This document shows positions 3,234-14,764 of a stretch of DNA of 64,000 nucleotides, in pieces. Below the pieces are notes generated by a model. That model saw only the letters and a program-made list of their open reading frames with translations, ran no database searches and was not told the DNA's origin. Where the stretch lies: positions 136,660 through 200,659 of the forward strand of contig JAPLES010000005.1 in assembly GCA_026391075.1 (NCBI GenBank), written 5' to 3'. The translations under genes were made by a program, and so were the position numbers. This DNA is from Bacteroidota bacterium. Its GTDB lineage: Bacteria; Bacteroidota; Bacteroidia; Chitinophagales; LD1. Each line of letters begins with the position of its first letter. Within the stretch, counting starts at the first letter, position 1.

Positions 3234-3578
3234 CTAAGCCGCTCGTTTCTCCTTCAACAAGAAAATAAATCCTGCGGTAAGCATAATTACCGTGTAAATG
3301 CAAATCGCGTTCAACTTGTTCAACTCTGTATATTGAATATACGTGCACTGCGCGTGAATGAAATAAGGATAAATGCTGCCAATAACATAAAGGATAATTC
3401 CAAAATTGAGCCGTTTGAGAATCGTAAGCAAACATAAACTGTAACTCACTACATGAACGATATGCGAAAGCGGAGTTTCAGGTGAAAATGGTTTTACCAA
3501 ACCAATTACATGCACACTAACTGCGGTAATGAAAAACAAAACCAAGAAAATTTTGGGTAACGCGTTTATGTATTTCAT
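3234..3578 (-). CDS. small integral membrane protein, unknown function
   Basis: ATG at 3578 gives a 114-residue product beginning MKYINALPKIFLVLFF; an open frame extends 12 codons further upstream but would run into the RidA gene. The ATG overlaps the RidA stop as ATGA (3575-3578), indicating translational coupling. Three to four hydrophobic segments are visible (FLVLFFITAVSVHVIGLV, SHIVHVVSYSLCLLTIL, FGIILYVIGSIYPYFI, ICIYTVIMLTAGFIFLL), ending in a positively charged KEKRAA tail. No family recognised. It is the last gene of the kynurenine-type operon and may accompany the GT-C protein two genes upstream. Confidence 0.7.
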   Translation of the reverse strand: MKYINALPKIFLVLFFITAVSVHVIGLVKPFSPETPLSHIVHVVSYSLCLLTILKRLNFGIILYVIGSIYPYFIHAQCTYIQYTELNKLNAICIYTVIMLTAGFIFLLKEKRAA

Positions 3579-3973
3579 ACTTCTGCAATCACCTTTAATT
3601 CTATTGCAATGCAAGAAGGCAGAGCATTAACTTCTACCGTTGTTCTGCAAGGTTGATTGTCCTTAAAATATTCGGCATAAATGCGATTGTAAGTTTGAAA
3701 ATCGCGCTTAATATCAACTAGAAAAACAGTCACGTCCACAATTTTCTCCCAACTGCTTCCCGCACCTTCCAATGCAATTTTTACATTTTTAAAAACAGAA
3801 TGTACTTGCGCTTCAAAATCAAACTCCAAATAATTTCCGTGCTTATCCATTTTTAATCCTGGCACTGTATCACCAGCCGCTTCGCGGGAACCCATTCCGG
3901 ATACAAAAAGAAGATTACCCACTTTTCGAGTGGGGGGATACAGTCCCATTGGTTGTGGTAGTTTTTCGCTCAT
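3575..3973 (-). CDS. RidA/YjgF-family protein, probable 2-aminomuconate deaminase
   Basis: A 132-residue RidA-fold protein. Landmarks: GNLLFVSGMGS near residue 20, the conserved arginine R110 in PCRTTVEV, and the C-terminal glutamate in IAIELKVIAEV. The family is a homotrimer that hydrolyses enamines/imines, and one subgroup is the 2-aminomuconate deaminase of the kynurenine (2-nitrobenzoate/3-hydroxyanthranilate) route. The context with 3-hydroxyanthranilate dioxygenase and an aminomuconate-semialdehyde-like dehydrogenase makes that subgroup more likely than housekeeping RidA. Start codon overlaps the stop of the upstream GT-C gene as ATGA (3970-3973), and its own stop overlaps the next start the same way. 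Confidence 0.85.
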   Translation of the reverse strand: MSEKLPQPMGLYPPTRKVGNLLFVSGMGSREAAGDTVPGLKMDKHGNYLEFDFEAQVHSVFKNVKIALEGAGSSWEKIVDVTVFLVDIKRDFQTYNRIYAEYFKDNQPCRTTVEVNALPSCIAIELKVIAEV

Positions 3974-5226
3974 GATATTTGAATTCTATTTTTGAGAAAA
4001 TCTTGATAAAGGAAAAAATATAAGGAGGCTATTAGCACTGCAAATAAACTTGCTACGAAATAAGGATCAAAAATAAGAATGTTGTAATTGGGAAAAGCAA
4101 GTCCGTACAATCTAGGTTCCATGTTGCAAAAATAAGCAAAGCAAAAAAGCAGAAAAAGAAAGACACGCTTAGTGCGGAAGGAATATGCTGCTATAAAAAT
4201 CATTGCAGGATGACTATAGCGTTCATGCATTTCGGTATTGAAAAAAAAGAAAAGCAGAGGAATAAGTGAAAAGCTTAGTAATGCCAAATCACTGGTTAGA
4301 TTAATTTTTTTTCGAAAGAAAAATTTAGAAAGTGTTGTTAAGAATAAAGGAAGTAAAGCCAAAATAGACGCGGCAAAAAATAAAAGAAACCCGATTTGCT
4401 TGTAGGAGAATAATCCGAATTTTATTTCATCGCTCATGTCAAAGCATCCTTTACCCAGTAGAAATACCCAAGCGTTAAATGCAGCTACTGAAATTTTTGG
4501 ATGATACCCCACCGCATGGAGATAGACATTTATGATGCCGCTCATTTCTCCCTTTAAGATAAACGGTAGCAGAAGCGCAAGTTGAATAAATGCACAAGCC
4601 AAAATGGAGGTGACAATTTTACGCCAGGTAATCTTGCCATAAAGTTGAGATATACTTAATAATAAAAGCGGAGGAGCGAAAACGATTGCTTGCGGTTTTA
4701 AATTTAGGATAAGTAAAAAACATACAGATGCAGCAAGTAGGTTTTCTTTCAGCAAAAAATAAAGCGAGGCAAATGCAAAAAATGCTAAGATCGAATCTAG
4801 CTGTCCCCACAGGTATGAGTTGTAGATAAAAATAGGATTTGCAATCAAGAGCAATAGAAATAAAATTTCTAATTTTTTATTGTTCGCTAATCGAAGTACA
4901 AGCAGCGCTCCTGCAAAATCAAACAAAAGCCCGTACACTTTAAAAAATTGAAAGTAGTTTACAATGTGTTCATGGCTTCCTTGAAATTTCCCAAATAGCC
5001 AAAGCATATAACACATTAACGGAGGGTAATTCATTTCCGGGTCAGGACAATGGTAGGCTTGAGTTAAACCGTGTTCAAAAATGTAGAGGCACCAAGTTTG
5101 AAAGCAGTTTTTATCGTACGGCAGATAAACTGCAGGCATGTAAAAACAGATTAAGACGAAAAGGAAGAAGGCAACTTGATTTACCGGTGATGCAATTATG
5201 GTTTTCAGGCTTGACAATAGATTCAT
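3970..5226 (-). CDS. GT-C fold integral membrane glycosyltransferase (mannosyltransferase-like)
   Basis: A 418-residue polytopic membrane protein with roughly ten hydrophobic helices. It shows signature pieces of dolichol/polyprenol-phosphate-sugar dependent GT-C enzymes: an acidic residue in the first periplasmic loop (PYDKNCFQTW), NYPPLMCYMLW, LWGQLDSILAF and LNLKPQAIVF, and a late EMHERYSHPAM motif. Such enzymes transfer a sugar from a lipid-phosphate donor on the outer face of the inner membrane; acceptor unknown. Its start overlaps the aldehyde dehydrogenase stop (ATGA at 5223-5226) and its stop overlaps the RidA start, so it is translated inside a catabolic operon where a glycosyltransferase is not expected. 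Confidence 0.75.
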   Translation of the reverse strand: MNLLSSLKTIIASPVNQVAFFLFVLICFYMPAVYLPYDKNCFQTWCLYIFEHGLTQAYHCPDPEMNYPPLMCYMLWLFGKFQGSHEHIVNYFQFFKVYGLLFDFAGALLVLRLANNKKLEILFLLLLIANPIFIYNSYLWGQLDSILAFFAFASLYFLLKENLLAASVCFLLILNLKPQAIVFAPPLLLLSISQLYGKITWRKIVTSILACAFIQLALLLPFILKGEMSGIINVYLHAVGYHPKISVAAFNAWVFLLGKGCFDMSDEIKFGLFSYKQIGFLLFFAASILALLPLFLTTLSKFFFRKKINLTSDLALLSFSLIPLLFFFFNTEMHERYSHPAMIFIAAYSFRTKRVFLFLLFCFAYFCNMEPRLYGLAFPNYNILIFDPYFVASLFAVLIASLYFFLYQDFLKNRIQIS

Positions 5227-6674
5227 GATTTAATGAAAACATTCTTTGCTTCTGTGAAAAACCGTATTGCTTCCCATCCACCTTCTCTACCAACTCCGCT
5301 TGCTTTTACTCCGCCAAACGGAGTTCGCAAATCACGAACGAGCCAACTGTTTATCCAGATAATTCCTGCTTCCACTTTTTCGGCTACACGATGTGCACGC
5401 TTTAAATCGTTTGTCCATATGGTGGCTGACAAACCATACCTCACACTATTCGCCATCATCAAAACTTCTTCTTCATTTTCAAAAGGAGTAAACGTAACCA
5501 CTGGTCCGAAAATCTCTTCCTGATTTGTCCTGCAGTTGTAATCCAATCCTTCAATAACAGTTGGACAAATGAAGTAGCCGTTTTTAATTCGGTCTGACCT
5601 TTGGTCTGACCCGAGTTCATTTCCACCGCATAAAATTTTTCCTCCTTCTTCCTCTGCCAATTTTATGTATGAAAGAATTTTCTGTTTATGTTGTAATGAA
5701 ACAATAGCTCCCATAACAGACGTTTCATCATTCGGGTCACCAACTTTCAACGTTTTTACTCTAGCTACAAATGCTTCTTTAAATTTTTCGTAAAGAGATT
5801 TTTCAATAAAAATTCTTGAGCCGCATAAACAAATCTCTCCTTGATTGCTGAAAGAAGCCGTAACCACTTGTTTTACTGTTTCTTCAAAATCGCTATCAGC
5901 AAAAACGATAGTTGGATTTTTTCCACCCAATTCAAGTGATAACTTTTTGAACATTGGCGCAGCAATAGATGCAATTCGTTTTCCCGTTTCTGTTCCGCCT
6001 GTAAATGAAATTGCTTTTATGTTTTCATGCTCAACAATGGCTTGACCAACTTTATTCCCTAAGCCATGAACAATATTCAAAACGCCTTTGGGTAAACCTG
6101 CTTCCATGCAAACTTGCGAAAGCAAAAAAGCTGTATAGGGAGTAATTTCACTAGGCTTTGCTATCACACAATTACCAGTAGCGAGAGCAGGAGCAATTTT
6201 CCAACTGAATAAATACAAGGGAAGATTCCACGGAGAAATACAACCGACTACACCGATGGGTTGACGTAAAGTATAATTGATTCCAACGCCAGGCATGTGA
6301 TGCGATTCAGATGCGAAGTGTTGAATAGCGGAAGCATAAAATCTGAAATTAGAAACAGCACGTGGAATGTCTACCGCGCGAGCGAGCTTTTGTGGCTTGC
6401 CATTGTCTTTGCTTTCAGCAGCAACAAATTCATCCATTCGCTTTTCAATTCCATCAGCAACTTTCATCAAAATGAGCATTCGATTTTCTAATGAATTTTT
6501 GCTCCAAGTTGCAAAAGCATTTTTTGCTGCATCAAAAGCTAATTGAACATCGCTCTCATCACTATCAGGTATAAGCGAATATACCTCACCTGTAGCAGGC
6601 TCATAATTGTCGAGATATTTTTTCGAAACAGGTTCGACTAATTCTCCGTTGATGTAATTTTTGAGTTGTTCCAT
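5223..6674 (-). CDS. aldehyde dehydrogenase, 2-aminomuconic/2-hydroxymuconic semialdehyde type
   Basis: A 483-residue NAD(P)-dependent aldehyde dehydrogenase. The general base E248 lies in LELGGK and the nucleophile C282 in NQGEICLCGSRIF, the form of the motif found in ALDH8A1 and bacterial 2-hydroxymuconic semialdehyde dehydrogenases; NPWNLPL-type cofactor loop is SPWNLPLYL near 148. With 3-hydroxyanthranilate dioxygenase and RidA nearby, oxidation of 2-aminomuconate semialdehyde to 2-aminomuconate is the likely reaction. Odd feature: residues 355-364 (GSDQRSDRIK) are encoded by a palindromic repeat present elsewhere in the window. A 9-base gap separates it from the upstream SDR gene. Confidence 0.9.
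   Translation of the reverse strand: MEQLKNYINGELVEPVSKKYLDNYEPATGEVYSLIPDSDESDVQLAFDAAKNAFATWSKNSLENRMLILMKVADGIEKRMDEFVAAESKDNGKPQKLARAVDIPRAVSNFRFYASAIQHFASESHHMPGVGINYTLRQPIGVVGCISPWNLPLYLFSWKIAPALATGNCVIAKPSEITPYTAFLLSQVCMEAGLPKGVLNIVHGLGNKVGQAIVEHENIKAISFTGGTETGKRIASIAAPMFKKLSLELGGKNPTIVFADSDFEETVKQVVTASFSNQGEICLCGSRIFIEKSLYEKFKEAFVARVKTLKVGDPNDETSVMGAIVSLQHKQKILSYIKLAEEEGGKILCGGNELGSDQRSDRIKNGYFICPTVIEGLDYNCRTNQEEIFGPVVTFTPFENEEEVLMMANSVRYGLSATIWTNDLKRAHRVAEKVEAGIIWINSWLVRDLRTPFGGVKASGVGREGGWEAIRFFTEAKNVFIKS
5591..5611. repeat. two copies of palindromic 9-mer GGTCTGACC inside the aldehyde dehydrogenase gene
   Basis: GGTCTGACC occurs at 5591-5599 and again at 5603-5611, separated by TTT. 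Each unit is palindromic except for its central base. A near-identical pair, separated by TTC, is intergenic at 26817-26838. Here it is in frame and adds about ten residues to a surface loop. Confidence 0.8.
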
Positions 6675-6683
6675 TTCCCAATA

Positions 6684-7481
6684 TTATAGACTGCCTGTTC
6701 TGCCTCCATCTACCGGCACATTAATTCCATTGATGTAAGCAGCCGCAGGTGAAGCAAGAAACGCAACAGCCGCAGCAATTTCTTCGGGCTTACCAAAACG
6801 CTTCATCGGAATTTCGCGCAGCATTTCTTCTTTCACCATTTCTGAATCCCAACCGGTTTTGTCAACGCGGTTGGCTATTATGCTTTTCAATCTTTCTGTT
6901 TCAGTAGCTCCCGGTAAAACATTGTTCACCGTAATTCCAAACGCTCCTAACTCATTCGCCATTGTTTTACTCCAATTGGCAACAGCTGCACGAATGGTAT
7001 TACTCACACCAAGATTTACCAACGGCTGTTTGACTGATGTAGAAATAATATTGATTATTCTACCGTAACCATCGTGCTTCATTCCTTCTGCAAAAAGTTT
7101 TGTGAGCAAATGATTATTGAGCAAATGCGCCTCGAAAGTTTTTACAAATTCTTCTTCCTGCGCTTCCATTATTTTTCCGCTTGCCGGTCCACCCGTGTTA
7201 TTCACTAGTATGTGAAATGTTTTCCCGGTTTTTTTCAAATGCTTTTGAACAGCACTACGAACTTTTTCATGATTCGAAAAATCAACCGCTAAGGAATCGT
7301 GTCGCTGTTCCCCTTTGCTTATAAAACTTAAATCAATCAATCCCTGCACCAAAGCTGTTTCGTCTCTGCCAACGAGCGTGATATTTGCTCCGAGTTTTGC
7401 CAACTCCATTGCAACTGCCTTTCCAATTCCTTTACTGCTTCCGCCAACAAAGGCATTTTTTCCGGTGAGGTCGAGATTCAT
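6684..7481 (-). CDS. atypical SDR-family oxidoreductase lacking the catalytic Tyr/Lys
   Basis: A 265-residue short-chain dehydrogenase fold: nucleotide loop GGSSKGIG at 13-20, NNTGGP at 95-99 (normally NNAG), and the C-terminal PVDGGRTGSL. The catalytic serine is S147 in IISTS. At the expected position 13 residues later, where Tyr stands, there is S160, and four further on R164 replaces Lys (LGVSNTIRAAV). This Ser/Arg form is a recognisable SDR subgroup with uncertain chemistry. It leads the minus-strand operon followed by the aldehyde dehydrogenase 9 bases downstream and diverges from the 3-hydroxyanthranilate dioxygenase gene, so a role in the same route is inferred but not shown. Confidence 0.85.
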   Translation of the reverse strand: MNLDLTGKNAFVGGSSKGIGKAVAMELAKLGANITLVGRDETALVQGLIDLSFISKGEQRHDSLAVDFSNHEKVRSAVQKHLKKTGKTFHILVNNTGGPASGKIMEAQEEEFVKTFEAHLLNNHLLTKLFAEGMKHDGYGRIINIISTSVKQPLVNLGVSNTIRAAVANWSKTMANELGAFGITVNNVLPGATETERLKSIIANRVDKTGWDSEMVKEEMLREIPMKRFGKPEEIAAAVAFLASPAAAYINGINVPVDGGRTGSL

Positions 7482-7501
7482 TTCTTACATTTATTTCTGC
7501 A

Positions 7502-7529
7502 ATCTAAACTCTAAAATTAAAAATCTGAA
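7502..7529. repeat. degenerate heptad array (4 units) before the dioxygenase start
   Basis: Four 7-base units: ATCTAAA, CTCTAAA, ATTAAAA, ATCTGAA, ending three bases before the ATG at 7533. Part of the 51-base divergent intergenic region between the SDR and dioxygenase genes. Confidence 0.7.
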
Positions 7530-7532
7530 ATT

Positions 7533-8048
7533 ATGGCTATTACACGTCCTTTCAATTTCAAAAAATGGATTGATGAACACCGCCATTTGCTGAAGCCGCC
7601 AGTGATGAATCAAGTGGTTTACAAAGGCAACGATGATTTTATTGTAATGGTAGTTGGCGGACCCAACAAGCGAAAAGATTTTCATTACAACGAAACGGAA
7701 GAATTTTTTTATCAGTTGGAAGGAAATATTGTAGTGAAGATTGTTGAAGACGGAAAAATTGTTGACATGCACATTAACGAAGGAGATATTTTTCTTCTTC
7801 CTGCAGGCACTCCGCATTCTCCACGAAGAACCGAAGGCAGCGTTGGTTTAGTAATGGAAGTTACCCGACCAAAAGATGTGTTGGATGGTTTTCAATGGTA
7901 CTGCGAAAACTGCAACAATAAATTGTATGAAGAAAAAATGCGAGTAGATGATATTGTAAAAGATTTGCCGGGAGTAATGGAACGCTTCTACTCGAACAAA
8001 GATTTGTGCACTTGCAAAAAATGTGGAACGGTGATGGAAAAACCGTAA
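7533..8048 (+). CDS. nbaC: 3-hydroxyanthranilate 3,4-dioxygenase
   Basis: A 171-residue cupin dioxygenase that opens the ring of 3-hydroxyanthranilate to 2-amino-3-carboxymuconate semialdehyde. Iron ligands of the family are matched by H51, E57 and H95 (DFHYNETEEFFY and LPAGTPHSPRR). The bacterial enzymes carry a second, rubredoxin-like iron site, here two CxxC pairs at C124/C127 (YCENC) and C161/C164 (CKKC). Length is normal for the bacterial type. It is transcribed away from the SDR/ALDH/RidA operon across 51 bases holding a heptad repeat array, and ends three bases from the convergent DegT gene. Decarboxylase, KMO and kynureninase are not in the window. Confidence 0.95.
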   Translation: MAITRPFNFKKWIDEHRHLLKPPVMNQVVYKGNDDFIVMVVGGPNKRKDFHYNETEEFFYQLEGNIVVKIVEDGKIVDMHINEGDIFLLPAGTPHSPRRTEGSVGLVMEVTRPKDVLDGFQWYCENCNNKLYEEKMRVDDIVKDLPGVMERFYSNKDLCTCKKCGTVMEKP

Positions 8049-8051
8049 GGA

Positions 8052-9161
8052 CTATTTACGCTTGAAGAATTCCTTAATCATTTCACACACATAGCTCACC
8101 TGCTCATCGGTAATGCCTGCATAAATAGGCAAACTCAAAATTGTAGAACATAATTTTTCTGTGACTGGAAAATCATTTTGTGCGTAGCCCAAAAACGAAA
8201 GCGATTGTTGTAAATGATTAGGAATAGGATAGTGAATAAGTGTTTGAATATTTTTCTCCGATAGAAATTTTTGAAGCTCATTACGTTTATGTGTTCTAAT
8301 AACGTAGAGGTGAAAAACGTTTTCTGCATTTGCTATTTCATGCGGCAAAGCAATTTGTTCAACATGCTTTAAGTTCTCGTGATACAAAGCAGCAATTCTT
8401 CTTCTCTCTGCATTCCACTTATCGAGATGCTTTAATTTTTCTTTTAAAAACAACGCCTGAATTTCATCCATGCGCGCATTGTATCCCACAGATTCGTGAA
8501 TATATTTTTTAAGCGAACCAACATTACGCAACTCCATAGCAGCATCTGCTAAATCAGAATTATCAGTAGTAATTGCACCTGCATCACCTGCCGCTCCAAG
8601 ATTTTTTGCGGGATAAAAACTAGTGGCGTTGATGTGACCGTGACTTCCCGTTCTTTTGGTTTTAAATTTTGCTCCCTGCGCTTGAGCGTTATCTTCTATT
8701 ACAAACAATTTTTTTGCATCGGCAAGCGAACAAATACTTTCCATATCACAAGGTTGCCCGTAAAGATGCACGGGGATAACCGCTTTTGTTTTCGATGAAA
8801 TATGTTTTTCAATTTCAGCGGCAGTAATATTAAATGTAGATGAATCTACATCGGCAAACACGGGCTTCGCACCTGCATGAATCACGGCTAAAGCCGTAGC
8901 AATGTAGGTATGCGCGGGAACAATAACTTCATCGCCCGGTTTTAAATTTAAACAGCGAAGAGAAATTGTAAGCGCATCCAATCCGTTGCTCACACCAATG
9001 CAATGTTTCACTCCAATGTATTCGGCAAATTGTTTTTCAAATTGTTGAACAGCGGGACCTAAAATGAATGAACCCGAATCGAGTAATTGCGACACAGATT
9101 CGAGAAATCGTTTTTTTACTTCTCGATTAGTTTCAACTAAGGATACAAAGGGAACATGCAT
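8052..9161 (-). CDS. DegT/DnrJ/EryC1/StrS-family PLP aminotransferase
   Basis: ATG at 9161 (MHVPFVSLVETN) is preferred over the TTG nine bases upstream; the product is 369 residues. PLP-binding lysine is K186 in SFYPAKNLGAAGDAGA, with D157 in VIEDNAQAQGAK contacting the pyridine. The sequence is closest in motif to the sugar aminotransferases that act on nucleotide-linked 3-keto or 4-keto sugars (FdtB-like). It is the last gene of the run of PhyH genes, 41 bases after the final dioxygenase gene and on the same strand, so it probably aminates an intermediate of the same pathway. No nucleotide-sugar dehydratase or acetyltransferase lies beside it, so the substrate is open. Confidence 0.9.
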   Translation of the reverse strand: MHVPFVSLVETNREVKKRFLESVSQLLDSGSFILGPAVQQFEKQFAEYIGVKHCIGVSNGLDALTISLRCLNLKPGDEVIVPAHTYIATALAVIHAGAKPVFADVDSSTFNITAAEIEKHISSKTKAVIPVHLYGQPCDMESICSLADAKKLFVIEDNAQAQGAKFKTKRTGSHGHINATSFYPAKNLGAAGDAGAITTDNSDLADAAMELRNVGSLKKYIHESVGYNARMDEIQALFLKEKLKHLDKWNAERRRIAALYHENLKHVEQIALPHEIANAENVFHLYVIRTHKRNELQKFLSEKNIQTLIHYPIPNHLQQSLSFLGYAQNDFPVTEKLCSTILSLPIYAGITDEQVSYVCEMIKEFFKRK

Positions 9162-9202
9162 GGCGCGCAATAATTTTTACAATGATAATTGAAACGCGTT
9201 TA

Positions 9203-10054
9203 CTAAGCGCCCAGAAATGATTTTACTCGGTGAAGGAAAGATGGCGAGATAAAATTAGTCAACTGCGCTGCATCTACTTGCGGAAATTTGTAGTCAATTT
9301 TTTCGCGGCTCTTTAACCCTTTTGGTCCTTCAAAAATATTTCCGTACAGAAAAAATTCGGGATTTGATTCGAAAACCTCTACCGTGTTTTCATCGGCTTT
9401 GTGATAGTAAAGCATCTCAGCCCCTTGCGGAATAATTCCATACACCGCAGCTAAACGAATTTCGTTTGATGAATTTTCTCCCGATGCATGCAACAAACGA
9501 TGGTCATAAATAAGTGCTTCGCCTTTTTTCATGTACAACGAAATCATTTTTTGCCAGAGCAAATCGTTTGTTTTTTCGTAAGCCGAAGAAATATTTGCGC
9601 TGCGATAAGATTTAAGCCAGGCATGGCTTTTAGGTAAAACTTTTATCACACCGTTGTTATCATTCAAATCAACCAACGGCACCCAAATATTGAACGAGCG
9701 GAATTTTTTTTCATCTACAATATTCCAATCTTGGTGAGGCTGCAAAGTTCCTTTGCTGCCTTTGCCTTTTGCAATAAACGAACCACCAAGTGAATTACAA
9801 TTGGAGAAAATTTTCTGAATAGCGCGCGCAAAAACTTTTTTTATTTCCTCGTTCATTTTCATTCTGAACGAAATATCGGGAACGTGCGCAGTGGCATAAA
9901 TACCATCCTGCTCTTTTGCATGGTGTTCGTAGTAAAAATTCACCAATGAAGAAACTTCGTCAGCAGAAAGGAAAGGAACAACTACATAACCTTCTTCCAA
10001 CAACTTTTTATCCAGTTGCTCATCAAGCAAAATTTGTTGTAGAGAATTTGTCAT
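9203..10054 (-). CDS. PhyH-family Fe(II)/2-oxoglutarate dioxygenase (cluster member 1)
   Basis: A 283-residue single-domain phytanoyl-CoA-dioxygenase-like protein. Metal ligands H107, D109 (PHQDWNIVDE) and H189 (RLLHASGEN), 2-oxoglutarate arginine R200 (NEIRLA). Its ATG overlaps the stop of the gene before it (ATGA at 10051-10054). N-terminus GYVVVPFLSADEV and a short basic-amphipathic tail (FLHRVKSFLGA) follow the pattern of its four neighbours. Soluble, no signal peptide. The substrate is unknown; the family ranges from phytanoyl-CoA to ectoine and free or carrier-bound amino acids. Full catalytic set, so presumably active. Confidence 0.9.
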   Translation of the reverse strand: MTNSLQQILLDEQLDKKLLEEGYVVVPFLSADEVSSLVNFYYEHHAKEQDGIYATAHVPDISFRMKMNEEIKKVFARAIQKIFSNCNSLGGSFIAKGKGSKGTLQPHQDWNIVDEKKFRSFNIWVPLVDLNDNNGVIKVLPKSHAWLKSYRSANISSAYEKTNDLLWQKMISLYMKKGEALIYDHRLLHASGENSSNEIRLAAVYGIIPQGAEMLYYHKADENTVEVFESNPEFFLYGNIFEGPKGLKSREKIDYKFPQVDAAQLTNFISPSFLHRVKSFLGA

Positions 10055-10968
10055 TGGAAAACTTCGGCAATGCGTTTGAAAATATTTTTCTGTGTAATAG
10101 GTTTTGCAGAAGTAAAACCCGCATTTGTTTTCATGCGTTCAATTTCTTTTTGCAATTCTTCTCTGGAGAATGTTGCAGGATGATATGCTTTGAACCCTTT
10201 GCTTTCACCCATGGTTGGTCGCTGAAAAATATCGGTAGCAAAGTTTTTAAAGCTGATGAGAAAATCTTCCGGCATTTCAAACACCTCTACTTCATCGGCA
10301 TTTTTTGAATTGTCTTTATAGTTGAATTGCATAGGCGTTCCCTTCGATTTCACTCCTGCTGTAATTGCTTTGCGAATTTGATTAGAACGATTCGCCTTCG
10401 AATAATGGATTACACTTTGATTGAGAATTACTGCCTCGCCTGCTTTCACGCATATGGGAATAGATGCTTCAATTACCAAATCATCATTGCCTGTAAAGAA
10501 AAAAGGAAGTGTTGGTGCACGCAAAGTTTTCAGTGAGTTGTAGTGTGAACCCGGAACAATTTGCAAAGCGCCATTCGTTTCGTTTACATCCGTCAAAGGC
10601 ACCCAACAATTAAGCGCAACAAATTTTTCTTCGTCAACAATTGTCCAATCCTGATGGATGGCTAACTCACTATTTTGTGAAGGCATTTTGAAAAGAAACG
10701 CTGCACCGAACGGTTGGTAATCTACAAACAGTCTTTCGTAGTGCTTCGAAAAAACTTTCACGATTTCATCGCTTGCTTTTTTCTTGTAAGCGAAATCCTG
10801 CGAGTAACTTCCTGATACAAATCCTTCTGTCGGCAAATCGGGATGAAGCGAATCGAAAAAATGGTTGAGGTATTTTATTTCTTCTTCATCAATAAACGGC
10901 ACTACTAAAAAACCCTGCTTTTCAAAGCGGGTTTGCATGGCATCGTCTTTAAAAATTCGCTTGCTCAT
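10051..10968 (-). CDS. PhyH-family Fe(II)/2-oxoglutarate dioxygenase (cluster member 2)
   Basis: A 305-residue PhyH protein with H105, D107 (IHQDWTIVDEEKF), H188 (SVIHYSKAN) and R199 (NQIRKA), all in place. The start ATG abuts the TAA of the upstream PhyH gene with no spacer (10969), and its stop overlaps the next start, so translation is probably coupled in both directions. It ends in an amphipathic tail, NIFKRIAEVFQ, of the kind shared by all five proteins. Between the two metal motifs is a CWVPLTDVNETNGALQIVPGSH block typical in family layout. Substrate not predictable. Confidence 0.9.
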   Translation of the reverse strand: MSKRIFKDDAMQTRFEKQGFLVVPFIDEEEIKYLNHFFDSLHPDLPTEGFVSGSYSQDFAYKKKASDEIVKVFSKHYERLFVDYQPFGAAFLFKMPSQNSELAIHQDWTIVDEEKFVALNCWVPLTDVNETNGALQIVPGSHYNSLKTLRAPTLPFFFTGNDDLVIEASIPICVKAGEAVILNQSVIHYSKANRSNQIRKAITAGVKSKGTPMQFNYKDNSKNADEVEVFEMPEDFLISFKNFATDIFQRPTMGESKGFKAYHPATFSREELQKEIERMKTNAGFTSAKPITQKNIFKRIAEVFQ

Positions 10969-11925
10969 TTATGCCACTAATTCTTTAATGCGCTGAAAAA
11001 AACTTTTCTGCTCAGGTTGAATAGATTCTTGCGTTATCTTTTTAGGAGCAGCTTTTTCAATTAATTCTCTCGCATTTGTTTTTTGAAATCTGCTGTCTAA
11101 AAATGCTTTGTCAATAGTTGGAAAGTTGTAATCAATCAATCCGATTGGTTTGCCTACGGTTGGTCTGTCGCGAATGTTCTCACCAAACTGTTCGAAGTTG
11201 GTCATGAAATCATCGTCCTGTGCAAATGCTTCTACTTTATTTCCATACTCTTCTTTGTTCCAATAGTAAGTTCTGTATTCGGTGTCCTTATGCGTAAAAT
11301 ACGTGTTGGTTACAATGCGAATTTTATCGCTGTAGTTAGGCGGTGAAAAATGAATAATGCTTTGGTCGAAGAACACAGCTTCCCCAGCTTTTATTAAAAC
11401 CGGTTGCAGATAATCAATCATATCATTCATCACCGGTGAAAAAAATTCAGGAATGCTACTGCCACGATAAGTAGGAAAAACCCGATGGCTCCCCGGCAAC
11501 ACAAACAGCGCACCATTTTCTACGGTCAAATCAACTAGTGGCACCCAAATATTGATTCCTGTAAAACGGCTCTCATCTACCAAACTCATGTCTTGATGCA
11601 CACACATGCCACTTTCGGGTCCGGGGCTTTTTACAATGAATGAGCCGCAAACCACTTTTATATCGGTGCAATATTTTTCGATACTGCGGTTGCCTATTCT
11701 GCGAATTTCAGAATCCGCTTCGTTTCTATAATTTTTATCGTTCGAAAATGTGCTGGGGAAAAAACCCTTTTCGTCTTTCGGATGCAAGCGATGATAAAGC
11801 GATTCGAGAGTTTCAATTTCTTCGGGTGTATAGAAAGGTAAAACCACAAAACCGTTTTTTTCAAAACTGTCTTGGTGTTTTTCCTCTCGGAAAACCTTCA
11901 ACATTTTTTCTGGAAACTGAAACAT
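10969..11925 (-). CDS. PhyH-family Fe(II)/2-oxoglutarate dioxygenase (cluster member 3)
   Basis: A 318-residue PhyH protein. Iron ligands H110 and D112 (VHQDMSLVDESRF) and H192 (SIIHFSPPN), 2-oxoglutarate arginine R203 (KIRIV). Unlike the others, the residue after HQD is Met rather than Trp. ATG at 11925 is used here; a second in-frame ATG seven codons on (MLKVFREEKHQ) would give the same domain. Tail: KSFFQRIKELVA. It is 13 bases downstream of the two-domain gene and directly abuts the next PhyH gene. Confidence 0.9.
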   Translation of the reverse strand: MFQFPEKMLKVFREEKHQDSFEKNGFVVLPFYTPEEIETLESLYHRLHPKDEKGFFPSTFSNDKNYRNEADSEIRRIGNRSIEKYCTDIKVVCGSFIVKSPGPESGMCVHQDMSLVDESRFTGINIWVPLVDLTVENGALFVLPGSHRVFPTYRGSSIPEFFSPVMNDMIDYLQPVLIKAGEAVFFDQSIIHFSPPNYSDKIRIVTNTYFTHKDTEYRTYYWNKEEYGNKVEAFAQDDDFMTNFEQFGENIRDRPTVGKPIGLIDYNFPTIDKAFLDSRFQKTNARELIEKAAPKKITQESIQPEQKSFFQRIKELVA

Positions 11926-11938
11926 GATTCGTATTTAG

Positions 11939-13843
11939 TTAAGCACCCGCCACACGCTTTTTTATTTCACGTGCAATATTGAGTGGTGTATATTTTTGAA
12001 AAAAGTTTCTCTCGTCATTCCACTTCCAAACCTCCTGCACTGGCTCTACCCATTTCTCTTCTGCTACTTCTGGTTTCGGTTCTTCTTTTGCAGAACCATC
12101 CATATTGTAATTGAAAAGTTTAGCGAGGCGTTCGCACATAGGTACATTAAATTCATTGCCTGCCGCTTTAATCATTTCAATCAATTCTTCGGAACTATGA
12201 TGCGGAAATGTGTAGGCAATTTCTTCCAGCACTTCATAATCTTCAATCAGTTTTCCTTCATCAAACATTTTTGCTAGAAGAGAATTGTTGTACTTCAAAT
12301 AAAAATCCTCATCTATTTTATACTTGATGGCAGTTGATTTTTTGCCATCGGGCTTTAAGCTATAGTGAATGAGTTGCGCATCCTTTTGCGTTACCCCAAC
12401 TCCTGCGGCTAAACGAATTTCAGTTGAAGTATTTGGAGGTGAAGCATGAAAAGTTCTGTTGTCGAACATCAAGACTTCACCGGCTTTCATGTCCAATGTT
12501 TTGAGGTACGGGAAAATACTGAACATATGTTCGCTCAGGGGCACCGGTGTTTGCGGCGATGGCGATGGACGATGATTACCCATCATTTTGTGACTGCCAC
12601 GAATAACTCCCATTGCTCCGTTATCAATATTCGTTTCTACCAAAGCTGTCCAGCAAGTGATTGAACAAAAACCATCTTCTTCTTTGTCAACGAAACTCCA
12701 ATCCTGATGCGCAGGCACAACGCCTTTTGGGTTAGGGTCTTTCACCACATAACTTGCCACGAAAGGTTTGAAATCTTTCAAATGTTCACTCAACTTCGGC
12801 AACACAACTCCCCAAACTTTTTCGCGAACGCGCTTGCTGATGTCTTTATCTTTTTGGTCCATGCTTACATGAAAACCAAAACCCATTTCATCTTTTATTT
12901 GTAACGATTCATAAAACGATTTCAAATCATTCACCTCTGTTTCATTCAGCAACGGATAAACGATATAGCCTTCGCGCTCGAAGAATTTCTGTTTCTCTTC
13001 GTCTTTGAAAATTGATTTCATTTTAAATTCTTGCACGCTATTCATCATTTGTTTCAGTTGAAATTCGTTCACCGGCTTTATTTCATAATCGAACTCGTCT
13101 ATCTTTTCTCCGCAAATTGGTGGCGCACCAATGTTCGTGTATTTGCTGAACATATCATCGGGCATTGAATATTTTTCGAGTTTGCCTTTTTCATTCTTCA
13201 GGTAAAGATACAGTTTCGCTTCGCTCGGAATCAAACCGTATGTAACAGCAATGCGCGGTGAAGAAGATTGATTCAACCACGAAGCATGAAGAAGCGCATG
13301 ATTGAAAATAAACGCTTCGCCCGCTTTCATGTTCAGCGTTTTCATTTGCTTCGAAATCACTTCACTCAATCCATCAAATTCGTTGGGAATATTTGGGGAG
13401 CGCAAGGTTTTTGAAAAGCGATGGCTACCCGGCAAAACTTTTATTGCTCCGTTATTTTCATTCACATCTTGCAAAGGAACCCAAGCGGTTACGGAATAAA
13501 ATTTCTCTTCATCAACAACAGTCCAATCCTGATGAACAGGCATGGTGCCGGTAATACCAGTGGGTTTTGTGAGAAAACTACTTCCTAATTTTTTGATGTC
13601 GTGAAAAAGCGTTTCTGCTTTTGAGGAATAAATTTTTTCTACCTCATCATTTATTTTTTGCTTGAGAGCATCATCATTACTAAACGAAGTGGAATGAAAC
13701 GAGGCAGGGATTTGCGGGCTTACTTCCTCATACAATTTTTTCAGCCGCGTAACTTCTTCATTGGAAAGAAATGGGACAACGATATAGCCGTCTTTATCAA
13801 ACTGCTCTTGTAACTTCTTATCATTAAAAACAGAAACGCTCAT
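11939..13843 (-). CDS. two-domain PhyH-family dioxygenase (cluster member 4)
   Basis: A 634-residue protein made of two complete PhyH domains with a junction near residue 270-276. Domain 1: H104, D106 (VHQDWTVVDEEKF), H186 (LLHASWLN), R197 (SPRIAV). Domain 2: H379, D381 (AHQDWSFVDKEED), H466 (TFHASPPN), R477 (TEIRLA). Both sets are intact. After domain 2 comes a charged, Pro/Glu/Trp-containing linker of about 50 residues and the amphipathic tail IAREIKKRVAGA. Domain 1 resembles cluster members 1 and 2 most, domain 2 stands further off, so the gene looks like a fusion of two neighbouring cluster genes rather than a recent tandem duplication. It lies 12 bases after member 5. Confidence 0.9.
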   Translation of the reverse strand: MSVSVFNDKKLQEQFDKDGYIVVPFLSNEEVTRLKKLYEEVSPQIPASFHSTSFSNDDALKQKINDEVEKIYSSKAETLFHDIKKLGSSFLTKPTGITGTMPVHQDWTVVDEEKFYSVTAWVPLQDVNENNGAIKVLPGSHRFSKTLRSPNIPNEFDGLSEVISKQMKTLNMKAGEAFIFNHALLHASWLNQSSSPRIAVTYGLIPSEAKLYLYLKNEKGKLEKYSMPDDMFSKYTNIGAPPICGEKIDEFDYEIKPVNEFQLKQMMNSVQEFKMKSIFKDEEKQKFFEREGYIVYPLLNETEVNDLKSFYESLQIKDEMGFGFHVSMDQKDKDISKRVREKVWGVVLPKLSEHLKDFKPFVASYVVKDPNPKGVVPAHQDWSFVDKEEDGFCSITCWTALVETNIDNGAMGVIRGSHKMMGNHRPSPSPQTPVPLSEHMFSIFPYLKTLDMKAGEVLMFDNRTFHASPPNTSTEIRLAAGVGVTQKDAQLIHYSLKPDGKKSTAIKYKIDEDFYLKYNNSLLAKMFDEGKLIEDYEVLEEIAYTFPHHSSEELIEMIKAAGNEFNVPMCERLAKLFNYNMDGSAKEEPKPEVAEEKWVEPVQEVWKWNDERNFFQKYTPLNIAREIKKRVAGA

Positions 13844-13855
13844 CGCAAATGAATT

Positions 13856-14764
13856 TTAGGTGAGCATGGCTTTAAGTTTAGAAACAAACCCCACCGATTC
13901 ATCAAAGCGCGGTTGATGCAATTTTTTATCGAAGGTTTTAATATCCATCGGCTGAAATTTGAATTTGAATTTGTCCACGCACTTCGCCCCTTCAGGTTGT
14001 TTCCACGGATTGAACTGCATGTAAAACTCGGTATCTACTTCCAGCACTTCCACATCATCTTTACTTTTTTCCGGATTCATGTGATAATGAATAGATGGAA
14101 ATTCCTGCGGAATAAGAATGAGTTGTATAGCCAAACGCAAACCATCGGTTTTGTTGATGGCAGAATAATGCACGATACTATCATCCAACACAATTGCATT
14201 TCCGGCTTTCAAATTCATAGGCACTAAATAATCTTTTATGATTTCGTGCTTGATGTTTTCGAGTTCCCAGGGAATCATTGGCCCGCGAAATTCACCAAAA
14301 CGTTTGTGGCTGTGCGGCACTACTTGTAGTGTTCCGTTTTCTTCAAAACTATCCACCAGCGGACACCAGATAGAAACGGTAGTGCATTTGCGTTCATTGG
14401 CAAAAGCCCAGTTTTGATGAAGCGGCACTTCGCCACTTTCGTGTTGCTTGCGAATGTAGTTGGCAATGATGGGGCGAAAATCTGCCAGCCACTTTTTTAC
14501 ATGTGGCTTGAAATATTCGGTGATAACATCGTAAACCGCTTGCTTGTATTCTATGTTTTTGTCAATGAAAGTGAAGTCGTAAGTAATAGCGTTGCTTTCT
14601 GTTCCAAGGTCAGAAACAGTGATGTTGCCACCGCTCTTTGGCAGCAGGTCGAAGAATTTTTGTTTCAGCCCTTCTACTTCTTCGCTTGAAATAAATGGAA
14701 TTTCCACATAGCCATCGCGCTGAAATTTCTTTTCGAGTTCATCATCGTTTAGCACTCTTCTCAT
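13856..14764 (-). CDS. PhyH-family protein with HxN in place of the HxD metal motif (cluster member 5)
   Basis: ATG at 14764 (MRRVLNDDELEKKFQRDGY) aligns with the starts of the other cluster members; the frame upstream offers only a TTG. The 302-residue product keeps H116, H199 (SIVHYSAIN) and R210 (DGLRLA), but the metal-ligand aspartate is Asn: HQNWAFANE, codon AAC, at N118. The surrounding VDE is also changed to ANE. In 2-oxoglutarate enzymes this carboxylate is normally a ligand, so the protein may be inactive, regulatory, a scaffold, or an oxygenase with altered coordination. It is the first PhyH gene after dusB (83 bases from the dusB stop to this ATG) and 12 bases before the two-domain gene. 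Confidence 0.85.
   Translation of the reverse strand: MRRVLNDDELEKKFQRDGYVEIPFISSEEVEGLKQKFFDLLPKSGGNITVSDLGTESNAITYDFTFIDKNIEYKQAVYDVITEYFKPHVKKWLADFRPIIANYIRKQHESGEVPLHQNWAFANERKCTTVSIWCPLVDSFEENGTLQVVPHSHKRFGEFRGPMIPWELENIKHEIIKDYLVPMNLKAGNAIVLDDSIVHYSAINKTDGLRLAIQLILIPQEFPSIHYHMNPEKSKDDVEVLEVDTEFYMQFNPWKQPEGAKCVDKFKFKFQPMDIKTFDKKLHQPRFDESVGFVSKLKAMLT

Follow-up and report, generated by a model that had tools for sequence, protein, structure and literature searches.

What becomes of a 2-oxoglutarate (2OG) oxygenase when the acid of its metal triad is replaced by an amide? The question is raised by an operon in a stretch of 64,000 nucleotides from a Bacteroidota bacterium (contig JAPLES010000005.1; the whole stretch is referred to below as the window). 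It is by the signature HxD/E...H triad that a protein is recognised as a 2OG oxygenase and judged to be active, and the protein encoded by the first gene of this operon has HxN in the place of HxD. We followed this protein through its orthologues, its predicted structure and its gene neighbourhood, and we weighed whether it is more probably an atypical enzyme or a partner of other enzymes.

The PhyH operon and its HxN protein

The HxN gene (13856-14764, minus strand, ATG start) encodes a PhyH protein of 302 aa and stands at the head of a tight co-directional run. The gene 12 bp downstream encodes a two-domain HxD PhyH protein of 634 aa, here called D1-D2 (11939-13843, minus strand), with two PF05721 stretches. 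It is followed on the same strand by three genes for HxD PhyH proteins that each match PF05721, namely those of 318 aa (10969-11925; HQDM), 305 aa (10051-10968; HQDWTI) and 283 aa (9203-10054; HQDWNI), and the operon ends with a member of the DegT/DnrJ/EryC1 sugar aminotransferase family (8052-9164, minus strand; PF01041, E=1.1e-119). The interval 9203-14764 holds six PhyH domains in one operon, with the DegT-type aminotransferase after them. Beside the PhyH operon, at 3575-8048, lies a set of genes resembling 3-hydroxyanthranilate/2-aminomuconate catabolism, whose members are a Rid-family protein, a hydroxymuconic-semialdehyde-type dehydrogenase, an SDR protein and a 3-hydroxyanthranilate dioxygenase.

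The HxN protein matches PF05721 over residues 14-211 (E=5.7e-20; 72.9 bits against a gathering cut-off of 22). Its AlphaFold2 model is a double-stranded beta-helix (pLDDT 93.1, pTM 0.90) with SnoK (Z 19.0 over 219 residues, 3.3 A) and PHYHD1 (Z 18.3) as structural neighbours, and SyrB2 and CurA are also among these. The nearest named NCBIfam model, TIGR04324, gave 20.4 bits against a cut-off of 150, so the protein is not a member of that family. Within the motif LHQNWAFANE, His116 (14417-14419) is the predicted proximal metal ligand, and the place of the facial-triad Asp is occupied by Asn118 (codon AAC, 14411-14413). The predicted distal metal ligand is His199 (14168-14170), and Arg210 (14135-14137), at the 2OG-binding arginine position, aligns with the conserved Arg of PHYH (2a1x); all four codons are on the minus strand.

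The first-pass annotation had contrasted HQN in this protein with HQD in the five remaining PhyH domains and had described His199 and Arg210 as kept, and direct reading of the codon and of the translation confirmed both points; the HQD domains are D1 and D2 of the 634-aa protein and the single domains of the 318-, 305- and 283-aa proteins. It had also pointed to ANE in place of the VDE that follows the motif elsewhere. This is true of the window protein but is not a trait of the family, in which position 123 is Asp in 29/40 HxN proteins and Asn in 6/40; since Asp prevails at this position in the clade, we rejected ANE as part of the metal-site change.

Conservation and origin of Asn118

Orthologues were searched for in the genus (18 genomes), the family (30), the class (395) and in named genome contigs. 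They are 53-97% identical to the HxN protein, with a clear gap to the paralogues, which lie below about 38%, and within the class they extend to at least four other families. The check proposed in the first-pass annotation, whether Asn is conserved in orthologues, gave a uniform answer: H[QE]N was read in every orthologue with the site covered, across independent assemblies and also outside the family, and the contrary case, orthologues with Asp at 118, did not occur. In an even draw of genomes over the phylum, searched at E<=1e-30, no further matches were found in 394 other genomes (own genome only, of 395). About 37 PhyH domains in an independent sample of other Bacteroidota were all HxD.

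Profile extraction of all PhyH domains in the gathered loci yielded 41 HxN and 169 HxD domains with the site covered, and removal of fragments left 207 domains from ∼42 loci. Residue 118 is Asn in 40 of these and Asp in 167, and no other residue occurs; because the domains were gathered by similarity to the HxN protein and by neighbourhood, the 40:167 ratio is not a census. The HxN domains form one clade with a support of 100 by FastTree (SH-like, 207 rows, column 118 removed) and an SH-aLRT of 99 by IQ-TREE (LG+C20, 75 rows, columns 118 and 195 removed), and the trees contain one change to HxN. The most distant members of this clade (L074, L075 twice, L076, L101 and L102) are 26-31% identical to the window protein. 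Over a tree length of ∼15 substitutions per site, 17/286 positions are invariant in the 40-member clade. Asn118 is among them, encoded by AAC in 25 members and by AAT in 15, and its conservation, as judged from these alignments, is far beyond chance.

Measured against the three nearest full-length orthologues, dN/dS is 0.033-0.046, which shows that the protein is under purifying selection. Quantification of mean identity over 26 loci gave 62% for the HxN protein compared to 52, 58, 51 and 48% for the other operon PhyH proteins, so that of the five proteins compared it has the highest mean conservation. The dN/dS values and the conservation rule out a decaying pseudogene. Taken together, the alignments and trees indicate that HxN is an ancient, single-origin and strictly kept subfamily trait.

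Some copies in the gathered loci are irregular. The HxN gene of L078 (8125-9211; G001 contig 31) is split over two overlapping frames by a frameshift or an assembly error. L072 (5301-10442; G016 contig 28) is a second, seemingly decaying copy of the battery, with an intact copy in L067; the first domain of its two-domain protein is truncated and lacks the proximal His (NQDWTVVDE), and its HxN copy reads HQNC. In L075 (7721-10620; G014 contig 6), two divergent HxN genes stand head to head, and one of them forms the N-terminal part of a 621-aa protein.

The cofactor pocket and Asp195

The residues around the altered position are largely unchanged. H116, H199, R210, K106 and G144 are identical in 207/207 domains, and W133 and N204 are identical in 206/207, including all HxN; 40/40 HxN domains keep H116, H199, R210, W133, K106 and N204. 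The two His positions and those of R210, W133 and K106 correspond to positions in human PHYH (2a1x), which we take to be the histidines of the metal site, the residues that bind 2OG and their neighbours. A protein whose active site was wholly out of use would look otherwise.

One other position, which the first-pass annotation had not pointed out, does change together with residue 118. At position 195, which precedes the distal His by four residues, 40/40 HxN domains have Asp (Asp195; 14180-14182, minus strand, in the window), a clade-specific carboxylate that co-varies with Asn118. In the 167 HxD domains the same position is Gln (63), His (55), Asn (34), Ser (9), Glu (2), Pro (2), Leu (1) or Asp (1), so that Gln, His, Asn or Ser accounts for 161/167. 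In HxD domains, a carboxylate at 118 goes with what is mostly a hydrogen-bond donor at 195; in HxN domains, residue 118 is the amide and residue 195 the carboxylate. The HxD members of the operon battery carry Gln, His or Asn here, and other PhyH proteins of the phylum mostly have a small residue, with one Asp and one Glu, both in HxD proteins. An acid at this position also occurs in some HxD proteins (Asp in L009 and L137; Glu in L061, L098 and L142), so Asp195 alone does not force Asn118. Moreover, because HxN arose once, the association of 118 with 195 represents one event followed by long retention and not 40 independent gains.

By DSSP of the model, residue 195 lies in a short turn that links strand 189-194 to the next strand, which begins at His199. 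From the jelly-roll topology we infer that it is located near the metal end of the barrel. We take the matching residue of SyrB2 to be Ser231, which lines the halide pocket (with His235 as ligand).

Partner protein, candidate functions and known systems

Among high-quality genomes of the family, 18/18 that encode the HxN protein also encode D1-D2, and the same 4 lack both. The co-occurrence holds when the genes are unlinked, as on different contigs in G006 and G028 and 42 kb apart in G018. In L098, L099 and L100, from two other families, HxN is N-terminal and fused to an HxD domain whose closest counterpart is D2, the C-terminal domain of the two-domain protein. Co-occurrence and fusion point to joint action of the HxN protein with D1-D2. 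A PhyH gene directly follows HxN on the same strand in 30/35 main-clade loci. On a far HxN branch (family f36), L101 and L102 (9535-13386) have a run with a 717-aa cytochrome P450 protein and not the HxD battery.

An ABC-2 permease of the polysaccharide-export kind (Pfam ABC2_membrane) precedes HxN in 18/35 main-clade loci, and an ATPase and glycosyltransferases are also found at some HxN loci; in the window, no permease lies next to HxN. Elsewhere in the same genome (L009, 1-18000, contig 12), a second PhyH group (HRD, HQD, HAD, HQD) is located inside a glycan locus that, by eye from the sequence, encodes two B12-binding-type radical SAM proteins, glycosyltransferases and a sugar kinase.

Our preferred reading, which we hold tentatively and at a little under an even chance, is that the metal site was recast and is used, and that the protein works with D1-D2 on an ABC-exported glycan. 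The recasting would have happened once, the facial-triad Asp becoming Asn118 and a carboxylate being gained at 195. The site would still bind 2OG and Fe(II), or a different divalent metal, through His116, His199, Arg210 and the Asn118 amide oxygen. It is plausible that Asp195 holds the amide of Asn118 by its NH2 group, or that it takes the place of Asn118 as the relocated acidic ligand, and it would supply the lost charge. The HxN protein would then be a real but atypical oxygenase that tailors the exported glycan together with D1-D2. That the site is an active 2-His-1-Asn iron site, with the carboxylate shifted to position 195 and the Asn-Asp pair tuning the iron for a reaction other than plain hydroxylation, is possible but rather doubtful. 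Against an active site here stands the behaviour of characterised 2OG oxygenases, which as a rule become inactive or far less active once the carboxylate is lost. In FIH, replacement of the Asp by Gly kept some activity, whereas replacement by Ala or Glu did not (PMC10947486). We consider catalytic activity slightly more probable than a role that is only structural.

A purely structural role is nevertheless a serious possibility, though not the outcome that we would expect. The HxN protein would in that case oxidise nothing itself and belong to an obligate complex with D1-D2 (or with all of the battery), where any 2OG, metal or substrate that it bound would serve just to hold the active subunit or to regulate it, in analogy to TlxI and TlxJ. 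TlxI, which is without the 2OG Arg, is catalytically incompetent and yet required by TlxJ, and a fused counterpart, TalA, exists (PMC12141560, PMC11880133). The first-pass annotation had suggested such a pseudo-oxygenase partnering the paralogues, with altered chemistry as the alternative, and the half of the proposal that concerns partnership gains weight from the perfect co-occurrence with D1-D2, the D2-type fusion and the 12-bp gene spacing. Decay into a pseudoenzyme is unlikely, given the invariant pocket for 2OG and metal and the fact that HxN is on average the best conserved of the operon proteins. All pocket residues are kept here, which a mere scaffold would not need, whereas TlxI has lost its 2OG Arg. 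The model of the fused protein predicts no fixed packing of the HxN and HxD domains and is compatible with a fixed interface as well as with none: it has two good domains (pLDDT 88), but its pTM is 0.56 and the linker (residues 294-303) has a pLDDT under 50 and is predicted to be disordered.

The pocket could also serve another ligand, either a different metal or, with no metal, a sugar or carboxylate, and have a non-oxidative role as a binding protein, a lyase or an epimerase-like enzyme. The clade-specific invariant residues Y62, D68, N102, Q214 and P219 suggest a changed pocket, but the invariant H/H/R/W/K positions are the Fe/2OG set and nothing points elsewhere, and we consider this reading unlikely. 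Less likely by far is a halogenase-like site in which loss of the acid opens room for a halide: the carboxylate is absent as in SyrB2-type enzymes, and SyrB2 and CurA are structural neighbours, but halogenases have Ala or Gly and room for the halide, Asn fills that gap, the anionic Asp195 would disfavour a halide, and position 118 is Asn in all 40 members and never Gly, Ala, Ser or Glu. A sequencing or assembly error, or a recent mutation in one genome, found no support and can be set aside for practical purposes, since orthologues from separate assemblies and families all have Asn, written with two synonymous codons.

The fold and the family are already established. The open literature searched gave no description of the metal-site variant, of its single ancient origin, of the coupled Asp195 or of the obligate HxD partner. 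Within that scope, which leaves most subscription journals outside, no natural 2-His-1-Asn site was found, and the words "Asn" and "asparagine" were not found in the text of a 2013 review of atypical non-haem iron centres (PMC4019311). The HxN protein may have a naturally evolved iron site of a new type, or it may be dedicated to the role of a partner. With its Asn kept over deep divergence, the other cofactor residues intact and a co-varying Asp, the subfamily offers a concrete test of the need for the triad and of relocation of its acid.

The closest known systems are the PhyH 2OG oxygenases PHYH (2a1x), PHYHD1 (3obz), SnoK (5epa) and SnoN (5ep9), with which the HxN protein shares the fold and the His, His, Arg, Trp and Lys positions; all four are HxD, whereas the HxN protein combines HxN with Asp four residues before the distal His. 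SyrB2-type halogenases (HxA/G) and AspH (HxG) likewise lack an acid at the usual ligand position, but the HxN protein has Asn in place of Ala or Gly, the extra Asp195 and a gap that is not halide-sized. Methylphosphonate synthase (MPnS), with a 2-His-1-Gln site, is a working non-haem iron enzyme with a carboxamide ligand. It resembles the HxN protein in having a carboxamide at the usual carboxylate place; however, it belongs to another family, is not 2OG-dependent and uses Gln. TIGR04324, the "sporadic carbohydrate cluster 2OG-Fe(II) oxygenase" family, is alike in its carbohydrate-cluster setting, although the score is far below the cut-off. As a pair, HxN and D1-D2 are most like the TlxI/TlxJ heterodimer (7vbq): in both cases two paralogous Fe/2OG proteins are encoded in one cluster, one is unusual and one canonical, and a fused form is found elsewhere. 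The two differ in what the unusual member has lost, TlxI lacking the 2OG Arg and the HxN protein keeping R210 and lacking the metal carboxylate. HxN and D1-D2 may be a bacterial counterpart of such heteromeric oxygenase pairs, set among six PhyH domains together and often beside a glycan exporter.
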